A stretch of DNA of 64,000 nucleotides, from positions 186,001 to 250,000 of the forward strand of contig NZ_RJKN01000003.1 in assembly GCF_003751265.1 (NCBI RefSeq). Reading direction: 5' to 3'. This DNA comes from Pseudokineococcus lusitanus (lineage in GTDB: Bacteria > Actinomycetota > Actinomycetes > Actinomycetales > Quadrisphaeraceae). Positions 41,276 to 46,051 of this stretch are shown here, piece by piece. The notes beneath the pieces were generated by a model. That model saw nothing but the letters and a program-made list of their open reading frames with translations, ran no database searches and had not been told where the DNA came from. Made by a program: the position numbers and the translations under genes. Positions within the stretch are counted from its first letter, which is position 1; every line of letters starts with the position of its first letter.

Positions 41276-41319
41276 ACGACGACGCCCGCCCCGGCTGCTG
41301 CCGGGGCGGGCGTCGTCGT
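41276..41319 (+). terminator. sdhA terminator
   Basis: Perfect 20-bp stem (41276-41295 with 41300-41319) and 4-nt loop, 17 bp after the sdhA stop; also suited to stop the convergent ASCH gene. Confidence 0.9.
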
Positions 41320-41887: not shown

Positions 41888-41962
41888 GGCGCCAGTCTCC
41901 CCCGCCGCCGGCACCGCCCGGGACGGCGCCCGACGGCCGGGGTCGCACGCCTTCCCGGACGG

Positions 41963-42004
41963 ACGACGGCGCCCGCCCTGCCGGAGCAGGACGGGCGCCG
42001 TCGT
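41963..42004 (-). terminator. ilvC terminator
   Basis: 13-bp outer stem (41963-41975 with 41992-42004) plus an inner CTGC/GCAG stem, 13 bp after the ilvC stop. Confidence 0.75.
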
Positions 42005-42017
42005 CGAGGGGAGAGAG

Positions 42018-43685
<1,668 letters not shown>

Positions 43686-43689
<4 letters not shown>

Positions 43690-45698
43690 CGGTCGTCGTC
43701 CTCGGTCGCGGGGCTCGTGCCCCCGGGCGTACGGGGGTCGGTGCCGGCGACGACGCCCGGGCCCGTGGGCGTCGGGGCGGCGTCGTCCTCGGTGCTGGTC
43801 TCCTCGTCCCGGTCCCACTGCGGCGAGATGCCGCGGGCGTACTGGATCTCGTCGTTGCTGACGCCGGCGGCGACCATCGGCCACACCATCGCGTCGCGGT
43901 GGACGACGAAGTCGACGACGACGGGCCGGTCGGTGACGGCCATCGCCGCCTCGATCGTCGCGTCGAGGTCCTCGGGACGCTCGCAGCGCAGCCCGACGCA
44001 GCCGTAGGCGTCGGCGAGCTTGACGAAGTCGGGGATCCGCTGGCCCATGGCCACCGCCGAGCCGGTGTGCAGGTCGGTGTTGGAGTAGCGGCCCTCGTAG
44101 AAGAGGGTCTGCCACTGCCGGACCATGCCGAGGCTGGAGTTGTTGATGACGGCGACCTTGATCGGGATGCCGTTGAGCGCGCAGGTGGCGAGCTCCTGGT
44201 TGGTCATCTGGAAGCAGCCGTCGCCGTCGACCGCCCAGACGACGCGGTCCGGGTCGCCGACCTTGGCGCCCATGGCCGCCGGCACGGCGAAGCCCATGGT
44301 CCCGAGGCCGCCGGAGTTGATCCAGCTGCCGGGGCGCTCGTAGCGGATGAACTGGGCGGCCCACATCTGGTGCTGCCCGACGCCGGAGACGTAGACGGCC
44401 TCGGGGCCCGCCACCTCGCCGAGGCGCTGGATGACGTGCTGCGGGGACAGCGCGCCGTCCTCGGCCGCGGCGTAGCCGAGCGGGTAGGTCTCGCGCAGCT
44501 GGTCGAGCTGGCGCCACCAGGCGGCCAGGTCGGCGCGGTGCCCCTCGGCGTGCTCGGCCCGGAGAGCGGGCACGAGCTCGGTGAGGACCTCGCGGGCGTC
44601 ACCGACGATCGGCACGTCCACCACCCGGTTCTTGCCGATCTCCGCCGGGTCGACGTCGGCGTGCACGACGGCGGCGTCGGGGGCGAAGGACGAGAGCTTG
44701 CCGGTGACGCGGTCGTCGAAGCGGGCCCCGAGCGTGACGAGCAGGTCGGCCTTCTGCAGCGCGGTGACCGCGGCGACGGTGCCGTGCATGCCGGGCATGC
44801 CGAGGTGGTGCGGGTGGCTGTCCGGCAGGGCGCCGCGGGCCATGAGGGTCGTGACGACCGGCGCGCCCGAGAGCTCGACGAGCTCGGCCAGCTCGGCCGA
44901 GGCGCCCGCCTTGATGACGCCGCCGCCGACGTACAGCACGGGGCGCTCGGCCGCCGCGATGAGGCGCGCGGCCTCGCGCACCTGGCGGCGGTGCGGCGTC
45001 GTCGTCGGCCGGTAGCCCGGCAGGTCGAGGCGCGTCGGCCAGCGGAACGTCGTCGTCGCCTGGAGCGCGTCCTTCGCGATGTCCACGAGCACGGGGCCCG
45101 GGCGGCCCGTCGCGGCGATGTGGAAGGCCTCGGCGATGGTCCGCGGGATGTCGTCCGGGTCGGTGACGAGGAAGTTGTGCTTCGTCACGGGCATCGTCAT
45201 CCCGACGATGTCCGCCTCCTGGAAGGCGTCGGTGCCGATGGCGGCCGAGGAGACCTGGCCGGTGATGGCGACCATGGGCACGGAGTCCATGTGCGCGTCG
45301 GCGATGGCCGTGACGAGGTTCGTGGCCCCCGGGCCGGACGTCGCCATGCAGACGCCGACCTTGCCGCTCGTCTGCGCGTAGCCCTGGGCGGCGTGGCCGG
45401 CGCCCTGCTCGTGGCGGACGAGGATGTGCCGGACGCTCGCGCTGTCGAGCAGCGGGTCGTAGGCCGGGAGGATCGCGCCGCCCGGGATGCCGAAGACGAC
45501 CTCGACCTCGGCGGCCTCGAGCGCACGGACGAGGCTCTGCGCCCCGGTGATGCGCTCCTCGGCGACGGGCGCGGGCGCCCCGCCGGTCGGGCTCGTGGAG
45601 CCGGTGGCGCCCTGGGCCGGCGAGGGCACGGCCGGGGCACCGGGGGCGGGCGGGCGCGGCCCCGGGCGGGGCGTGGTCCGCTGGTCGACGCTGGACAT
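43686..45698 (-). CDS. ilvB: acetolactate synthase, catalytic subunit
   Basis: 670 aa from ATG 45698, with GGAGG 5 nt upstream. TPP enzyme condensing pyruvate to acetolactate (or with 2-oxobutyrate). N-terminal Pro/Ala-rich extension of about 48 residues, then [32 protein letters not shown]; catalytic Glu in [17 protein letters not shown]-binding [15 protein letters not shown] followed by [13 protein letters not shown] disordered C-terminal tail of about 45 residues is extra. Preceded by a leader peptide and hairpin suggesting attenuation by branched-chain amino acids. Confidence 0.97.
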
Positions 45699-45846
45699 GA
45701 GGTCCTCCGGGCGGTGCTCGTGGCGCGGGCCCCGGGACGGGGCCTGCTCGGTGGTGCCGGTGGTGCGGGTCGTGCCTACGTGCGGGTCCTGCTCGTGCTG
45801 CCGTCCGTCATGCTCCCGGTCCCGCGAGGAGGCCCGGACATGACGA

Positions 45847-45886
45847 GACCCCTCGGCCGGCGCGGTGGCCGGCGGTCCGAGGGGTC
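45847..45886 (-). promoter_or_regulatory. candidate attenuator hairpin in the ilvB leader
   Basis: 10-bp outer stem GACCCCTCGG/CCGAGGGGTC (45847-45856 with 45877-45886) and a 5-bp inner stem CCGGC/GCCGG. It begins 37 nt after the leader-peptide stop and about 150 nt before the ilvB start. I could not identify the competing antiterminator pairing with certainty. The rest of 45699-46002 holds only this leader. Confidence 0.6.
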
Positions 45887-45923
45887 GCGTGCGGAGCCGT
45901 GGGTGACGTCGAGGGCGTCGGGC

Positions 45924-45959
45924 TCACGCACGCCCGGGAACTACGAGGAGGCTCTGCAC
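45924..45959 (-). CDS. ilvB leader peptide (VQSLLVVPGRA)
   Basis: 11 codons plus stop: GTG CAG AGC CTC CTC GTA GTT CCC GGG CGT GCG TGA. Four consecutive branched-chain codons (Leu-Leu-Val-Val), including GTA, which is very rare at this GC content. CAGGCT (45971-45966), 18 bp from TTGACG (45995-45990), ends 6 nt before the GTG, so the peptide would be read from the 5' end of a leaderless mRNA. Ribosome stalling on these codons would report leucine/valine supply to the downstream hairpin. Confidence 0.75.
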   Translation of the reverse strand: MQSLLVVPGRA

Positions 45960-45965
45960 GGGGAC

Positions 45966-45995
45966 AGCCTGCTCCGCGGCCCGGGACGTCGTCAA
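45966..45995 (-). promoter_or_regulatory. ilvBNC promoter
   Basis: TTGACG (45995-45990), 18-bp spacer, CAGGCT (45971-45966) on the minus strand. Located just beyond the terminator of the lysine operon. Confidence 0.55.
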
Positions 45996-46002
45996 CCGAC
46001 GG

Positions 46003-46033
46003 GACGCCCGTCCCAGCATGCGGGACGGGCGTC
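46003..46033 (-). terminator. terminator of the lysine-catabolic operon
   Basis: Perfect 12-bp stem (46003-46014 with 46022-46033), 7-nt loop, 18 bp after the aldehyde dehydrogenase stop. Confidence 0.8.
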
Positions 46034-46051
46034 TCAGCGGGCGGAGGGCGC

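Follow-up and report, generated by a model that had tools for sequence, protein, structure and literature searches.

The ilvBNC operon of Pseudokineococcus lusitanus, encoded on the minus strand of the 64,000-nucleotide stretch of DNA analyzed here (hereafter the window; the genome carrying it comprises 3.84 Mb in 19 contigs), is preceded by a short ORF with consecutive Leu and Val codons and by a GC-rich hairpin. This raises the question of whether these elements constitute a regulatory device and, if so, how it might operate. Having compared the region with that of other ilvB loci, we consider it highly probable that it is a ribosome-mediated transcription attenuator of ilvBNC, with a leaderless mRNA on which translation of the leader would begin at the very first codon, and very likely that this leader switches the operon on when Leu or Val run out.

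Organization of the ilvBNC locus and its upstream region

The operon, together with all the regulatory features described below, lies on the minus strand. ilvB (43686..45698) codes for a 670-aa acetolactate synthase large subunit with the Pfam domains TPP_enzyme_N, M, and C, ilvN (43117..43689), whose start overlaps the ilvB stop, for the small subunit (Pfam: ALS_ss_C and ACT_AHAS_ss), and ilvC (42018..43043) for a ketol-acid reductoisomerase (Pfam: KARI_N and KARI_C). A Shine-Dalgarno-like GGAGGA (45703..45708) precedes the ilvB ATG (45698). Further upstream lies a putative promoter with a –35 element, TTGACG (45990..45995), and, after an 18-nt spacer, a weak –10 element, CAGGCT (45966..45971), which ends 6 nt ahead of a GTG (45959-45957). 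This GTG opens an 11-codon ORF (45924..45959; stop codon TGA at 45926-45924), predicted to be a leaderless leader with the product (V/M)QSLLVVPGRA, which contains the candidate sensing codons CTC CTC GTA GTT (Leu-Leu-Val-Val; 45939..45950).

Three segments of the predicted transcript can engage in alternative pairings. Segment 1 (GUGC-A-GAGCC; 45950..45959) forms its 5' end and is pairable with segment 3, which would mask the start codon. Segment 2 (GCGUGCG-U-GAGCC; 45921..45933), which extends over the last codons and the stop codon, likewise pairs with segment 3 (GGCUCCGCACGC; 45887..45898), and segment 3 in turn adjoins a GC-rich, terminator-like hairpin with an inner stem (GACCCCTCGG...CCGAGGGGTC, that is, GACCCCUCGG...CCGAGGGGUC; 45847..45886) and a degraded U-tract (UCGUCAUG). 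The hairpin begins 37 nt after the leader stop codon and lies about 150 nt ahead of the ilvB ATG. This anatomy, from TTGACG-18-CAGGCT and the GTG 6 nt on, through the 11-codon ORF and the 37-nt interval, to the hairpin and ilvB some 150 nt further, had been set out in the first-pass annotation, and every detail of it is borne out by the sequence, as is its statement that GTA and GTT are rare (10 and 5 of 1,528 Val codons in 36 gene-like window ORFs picked by GC3).

Two other hairpins in this part of the window are 20-bp, GC-rich, and devoid of a T-run: one lies just behind ilvC (41962-42005, minus strand) and the other (41276-41319) between an sdhA-like gene, named by eye, and its convergent neighbor.

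Conservation of the leader in the genus and beyond

A generic scan for promoters and terminators gave no match at the leader locus, since CAGGCT is a weak –10 element and the hairpin lacks a T-run, and Rfam returned no ilvB leader family, either across the whole window at the gathering score or in 45690-46050 at E-values up to 1. The promoter and hairpin of the window alone would not be convincing; it is the comparison with relatives that makes the case. This silence of the generic scans, along with the commonness of short ORFs in GC-rich DNA, would be expected if a short BCAA-containing ORF had come to lie by chance between two unrelated hairpins, but the comparative results given below (conservation, spacing, codons, the position of GTA, pairing, covariation, and the hairpin relative to shuffles) refute such a coincidence and render it vanishingly improbable.

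In three genomes of the same genus, alignment with the window reveals the leader MSSQQG[VL]LVVPGRA. TTGAC is aligned at the –35 position and CTCGTAGTT at the sensing codons in all four genus members; further conserved blocks are CTCGTAGTTCCCGGGCGTGCGTGAGCCC and, later, GGCTCCGCACGCGACCCCTCG and GGCCGAGGGGTCTCGTCATGTC. Conservation extends to the core of the leader, both arms, and the hairpin, while the loop, the stretch towards ilvB, and neighboring stretches vary. The ORF of the window is 9 nt shorter than its genus orthologs and its start is still 6–7 nt from the –10 element; a shorter ORF with an unchanged distance to the –10 element is what a leaderless start predicts.

For the wider comparison, we assembled 150 ilvB loci, including that of the window, from three gatherings of 30, 80, and 40. 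ilvB was found in 77 of 79 genomes, and the upstream stretches of 70 of these (30 given and 40 fetched) were used, those of G015, G026, G027, G031, G047, G062, and G076 being left out; the further 80 loci are the best 80 among the matches listed. A strict leader filter, which required a BCAA run with an Arg downstream of it, an end resembling GCGCG, and 8–20 codons from start to stop, was passed by 96 of the 150 loci. Dropping L031, a Quadrisphaera granulorum contig whose leader stretch is identical to that of L007, left 95 leaders; at L076 and L077, which have two candidate leaders each, one was chosen by hand. Because the filter selects for the peptide, peptide conservation inside this set is partly built in; promoter spacing, codon usage, the position of GTA, the hairpin, the 2:3 pairing, and covariation all lie outside the filter.

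A looser scan of the 54 loci that failed the filter, run without a chance control, recovered a T-run terminator together with a BCAA-containing ORF in 26, a terminator alone in two (L068, L072), and no T-run terminator in 26, including L091 and L104, which have no usable upstream sequence. On visual inspection, the leader of L017 exceeds the length that the filter admits and that of L005 is divergent, each being followed by a U-poor hairpin; L009 has no leader. Neither a filter-passing BCAA leader nor a T-run terminator is found upstream of ilvB in L092, L093, L095-L099, L101-L103, L107, and L109, which belong, among the matches listed, to Microbacterium, Mycetocola, Pseudoclavibacter, Agreia, Curtobacterium, Schumannella, Gryllotalpicola, and Subtercola, genera that we take to be Microbacteriaceae; this suggests that the attenuator might have been lost or replaced there. 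In L065, from a metagenome-assembled actinomycetote, a second short ORF with Leu-Ile-Lys repeats (~2230-2277) occurs just upstream of the ilvB leader.

Codon bias and a fixed position for GTA

The filtered leaders show a marked departure from the codon usage of the genes that they precede. The 249 Val codons of the 95 leaders comprise 104 GTA, 88 GTC, 31 GTT, and 26 GTG, whereas the 3,472 Val codons in the ilvB genes of 68 loci comprise 2147 GTC, 1158 GTG, 123 GTT, and only 44 GTA; the leaders of these same 68 loci have GTA at 77 of 171 Val codons and CTG at 5 of 133 Leu codons. The Leu codon CTG is avoided in leaders (8/176) relative to ilvB genes (1,462/2,736). Where a leader had several candidate starts, its codons were counted from the most upstream one, with the start codon excluded. 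The first-pass annotation had named a lack of conservation of the Leu/Val codons in relatives as one of the findings that would overturn it; the codons are conserved, and the proposal survives that comparison. Its suggestion that rare codons sharpen sensing appears plausible.

The preference for GTA is also positional. In 68 of 87 leaders, GTA occupies the codon that begins 11 nt ahead of the GCGCG core, the denominator being reached by setting aside L074, which has no core, and 7 of the other 94 rows that are out of frame with this slot. A ribosome with the slot codon in its A site would end about where segment 2 begins. Selective tRNA charging offers a possible explanation for the preference for GTA at the level of codon charging. 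ARAGORN places among the 46 tRNA matches of the genome one gene each for the Val anticodons GAC, TAC, and CAC and for five Leu anticodons, and this one-gene-per-anticodon complement does not decide for or against that explanation.

A resemblance noted by eye between the CTCG of the leader and the 5' arm of the hairpin, as if the former were a mimic of the latter, was rejected: some loci agree with it, but others, L130, L134, and L138 among them, do not.

Evidence for a leaderless start

The distance between promoter and start codon was assessed on 68 leaders with a single possible start, the 27 with several being kept apart. A promoter-like pair ends 6–7 nt before the start codon in 60 of these 68, against about 0.7 expected from shuffles: the distance is 6 nt in 29 and 7 nt in 31, with one leader each at 5, 8, and 28 nt and five with no pair, and shuffles of the 60 nt upstream yield about 0.3 promoter pairs per distance. 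The –10 box of the relatives takes the form NANNNT in these 60. When 66 single-start leaders are aligned on the start codon, TTGAC-like and TA..T-like boxes emerge at the promoter positions, and C is found at –1 in 59. Among the multi-start leaders, 20 of 27 have one start with a promoter at 6–7 nt, a figure inflated by the choice among starts. At the window, the promoter spacing fits the leaderless class, with the start site predicted from sequence, and the leader peptide probably lies at the very start of the ilvBNC mRNA.

The leader could instead be translated from a leadered transcript that starts further upstream, an arrangement that would itself be compatible with attenuation. The weak –10 element, a GGAG (45975-45972) that ends 12 nt ahead of the leader GTG, and the presence of an SD-like tetramer 4–16 nt upstream of the start in 22 of the 68 single-start leaders all favor such a transcript. 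It is countered by the 6–7 nt spacing in 60/68 and the C at –1 in 59/66, by a 13-bp hairpin without a T-run (46003-46033, minus strand) that lies behind the upstream aldehyde dehydrogenase gene and ends just ahead of the ilvB –35 element, and by homologs found leaderless by experiment (PMC11857589, PMC8079986, PMC5784534); on balance, we regard it as quite improbable. As for the leaderless reading that we prefer, an ATG or GTG at the 5' end is described in PMC4633059 as necessary and sufficient for leaderless initiation in mycobacteria; however, the same text cites less than 10% activity for GTG as a leaderless start in E. coli, which counts against a leaderless GTG.

Pairing between the RNA segments

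Segment 2 and segment 3 show a clear affinity specific to each locus. Duplexes of cognate segments average –23.0 kcal/mol, against –13.9 kcal/mol with a shuffled segment 3, and in 90 of 92 loci the locus' own segment 3 outperforms the mean of those from dissimilar loci. Absent from the duplex, 1:3, and fold comparisons are L116, L117, and L121, which have no hairpin by the stem rule; by eye, L116 has a similar hairpin with one mismatch. An alignment was drawn from a pool of 73 of the 92 loci (stop-to-hairpin distance 16–34 nt, identical stretches taken once), 63 of which were aligned with the window to give 64 leaders, with L046, L069, L074, L113, L128, L133, L135, L136, L138, and L150 left out. 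Across these, 96.7% of cells in the core helix of the 2:3 stem are paired, and 4 of its 7 pairs show compensatory changes, with both sides altered; for the main hairpin helix, the corresponding figures are 91.6% and 4 of 6. RNAalifold, unprompted, selects the cores of both stems. Pairing in the outer part of the 2:3 stem (helix 2) reaches just 39.2% of cells, so this extension is not general. The covariation score is 0.197, against 0.143 for shuffled columns and 0.044–0.144 for versions slid along the alignment, and is reached by 0 of 500 column shuffles, a control that ignores relatedness. The highest-scoring slide, +2, still pairs 68.9% of cells, in our reading because the arms are GC repeats.

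The competition between the two stems is less clear-cut. The lowest-energy fold of 45844-45939 (96 nt) contains both the 2:3 stem and the hairpin. Segment 2 leaves the hairpin 5' arm untouched in 36 of 92 folds, those of two genus members included, and takes four distal bases of that arm in the window's own fold. The stretch with the 2:3 stem and without the 3' arm of the hairpin has a stability like that of shuffles (z –0.63, 51/200). Folding as modeled does not clearly make antiterminator and terminator mutually exclusive, and this is a weak point of the attenuation model.

A further pairing appears at the 5' end. In all four genus leaders, the lowest-energy fold of the untranslated RNA pairs this end with segment 3 and masks the start codon; in the window, this involves GUGC-A-GAGCC with GGCUC-C-GCAC (–17.4 kcal/mol). 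Beyond the genus, the cognate 1:3 pairing beats the mean of shuffled segments in 43 of 65 loci and the average obtained with segment 3 from other loci in 39 of 65, values too weak for a general claim, and we accordingly keep the 1:3 pairing for the genus only.

The hairpin and its degraded U-tract

By our stem rule, 92 of the 95 loci have a hairpin, which means little in itself because the rule also yields one in 388 of 475 shuffled downstream regions. Of the 92 observed hairpins, however, 74 are followed by at least 5 T within 8 nt, a count found in none of the 475 shuffles, and the score of the window hairpin is reached by 1 of the 475. The hairpins of the aligned relatives mostly carry T-runs. 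Over the 92 loci, the T count in these 8 nt is 6–8 in 66, 5 in 8, 4 in 12, and 3 in the remaining 6, namely the four genus members, L006 from the same family, and L015; in the genus members, none of the three T are neighbors. As the window and its three genus relatives have just 3 T in 8 nt, short of a canonical U-tract, we do not file this hairpin as a canonical Rho-independent terminator. Immediately after the T-run, alignment columns 122-134 look conserved by eye ([CG]NTGC or CATGTC/CATGCC), beyond what a U-tract needs.

We also scanned 31 of the 36 gene-like ORF ends in the window, and found six with stems of at least 13 bp within the first 60 nt and 0–2 T in the next 8 nt, representing five distinct hairpins, one of which is common to two convergent genes; only such long stems are meaningful, since 86 of 300 random positions had a stem of at least 8 bp. 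Given that these six long-stem gene ends carry 0–2 T, U-less hairpins may be ordinary terminators in this genome. We regard the degradation of the U-tract as a possible lineage trait and no proof of lost function. The degraded tract, which all four genus members share (3 T in 8 nt), and the folding together of the 2:3 stem and the hairpin might also mean that the leader is real and the hairpin no longer terminates, acting instead on mRNA stability or setting a constant level of expression. Such a loss of function sits poorly with the retention across the genus of the hairpin arms, segments 2 and 3, and the sensing codons while neighboring stretches vary, and with the U-poor long hairpins at the window's gene ends, and we consider it unlikely.

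A proposed mechanism

The ORF, the promoter spacing, the codon bias, the core of the 2:3 stem, and the hairpin stem are established by sequence comparison, and we infer the start site, translation, stalling, termination, and the way in which the 2:3 stem opposes the hairpin. We propose that transcription starts at, or within about one base of, the GTG, and that the ribosome loads there, with no Shine-Dalgarno sequence inside the transcript. As long as charged Leu- and Val-tRNA suffice, the ribosome would reach the stop codon and cover segment 2, whereupon the downstream hairpin would form and transcription would end. When Leu or Val is short, the ribosome would stall on CTC CTC GTA GTT, the most critical stall codon being GTA, which begins 11 nt before segment 2; the stall would free segment 2 for pairing with segment 3 immediately beside the hairpin, and RNA polymerase would read into ilvB. 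Without translation, segment 1 may pair with segment 3, leaving the start codon hidden and the hairpin free to form.

Two extensions of this mechanism are tentative, though we hold them to be possible. Within the genus, the U-less GC hairpin might still terminate, and the 1:3 stem, in which segment 1 is a near-copy of segment 2, might mask the leaderless start such that the switch depends on the loading of the first ribosome; across Actinobacteria, a rare GUA held 11 nt from the antiterminator might serve as a ribosome ruler.

Relationship to known attenuators

The first-pass annotation had regarded leaderless loading as an uncommon design for attenuation. Its overall reading, an ilvBNC attenuator with a predicted leaderless leader and rare sensing codons, stands, but that part of it is not supported: published reports place the ilvBNC transcription start of Corynebacterium glutamicum one nt from the leader start codon (PMC11857589) and that of C. 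diphtheriae ilvB at the leader start (PMC5784534), and describe the Streptomyces lividans ilvL and several other leader peptides as transcribed leaderless (PMC8079986). As leaderless ilvB leaders have already been published, surprise at leaderless attenuation is unwarranted in this phylum; leaderless cysteine attenuators in mycobacteria are likewise the subject of a published title. Leader peptides with terminators before actinobacterial ilvB were proposed in 2005 (PMC1262725), and the C. glutamicum leader is also listed in PMC3890552 and PMC4046766. Dependence of expression on leader translation and BCAA supply is reported for the homologs of C. glutamicum (PMC11857589) and Mycobacterium tuberculosis (PMC13236596); counting against attenuation, substitution of possible regulatory codons before ilvB is reported to have had no effect in S. 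coelicolor (PMC1262725).

Among the closest parallels is the ilvBNC attenuator of C. glutamicum (IlvL MTIIRLVVVTARRLP; Morbach 2000, as recounted in PMC11857589), which has the same operon, a leaderless leader of the kind predicted for the window, and Leu/Val control codons that include GUA, already named there as a control codon. Its terminator and antiterminator, which have putative counterparts here, are accompanied by a further hairpin (H1) that shields the start region and that the 1:3 pairing of our genus resembles (PMC11857589). In contrast, the displacement of a terminator trinucleotide by the antiterminator, a three-nt overlap stressed in that text, has no clear equivalent here, and the window differs from C. 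glutamicum in its degraded U-tract, its shorter peptide, and its other N-terminus. The Corynebacterium ilvB-II motif (PMC10272879) similarly comprises a uORF rich in I/L/V and the stems P1 and P2 about 150 nt before ilvB; its 103 representatives are all from Corynebacterium and, unlike the window, have a U-stretch after P2. The Streptomyces ilvL (MRTRILVLGKRVG; S. lividans TK24, PMC8079986) is leaderless, as predicted for the leader in the window, and likewise has BCAA codons and hairpins before ilvBHC. The Streptomyces loci compared here share CTCGTA and the GCGCG end with the window, but Streptomyces keeps a U-rich tract, and the stop-to-hairpin distance is 39–54 nt in the Streptomyces and Kitasatospora loci versus 37 nt in the window. 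Finally, the M. tuberculosis ilvB1NC uORF has LVVI regulatory codons, GUA being treated as the regulatory one in the model, and a ribosome at the stop codon that masks the antiterminator, as proposed here; that attenuator retains its U-tract and has been tested with reporters (PMC13236596).

A search of titles and the beginnings of abstracts, in which subscription journals are thinly covered, returned among the matches listed no paper on leaderless spacing or a fixed GTA distance across Actinobacteria. Our comparison points to a wide distribution of leaderless ilvB attenuators in Actinobacteria, in which start codon, one rare Val codon, and antiterminator stem lie at fixed distances. It provides a set of loci on which the influence of codon choice on attenuation can be tested, together with a natural system in which to ask whether hairpins lacking a U-tract can terminate in GC-rich actinobacteria. 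The putative attenuator of the window is a conserved switch of a type already described in related actinobacteria, to which the present analysis adds a representative from this lineage, the extent to which the type is conserved, the fixed GTA-to-stem distance, and, in the genus, the start-codon-masking pairing and the degraded U-tract.
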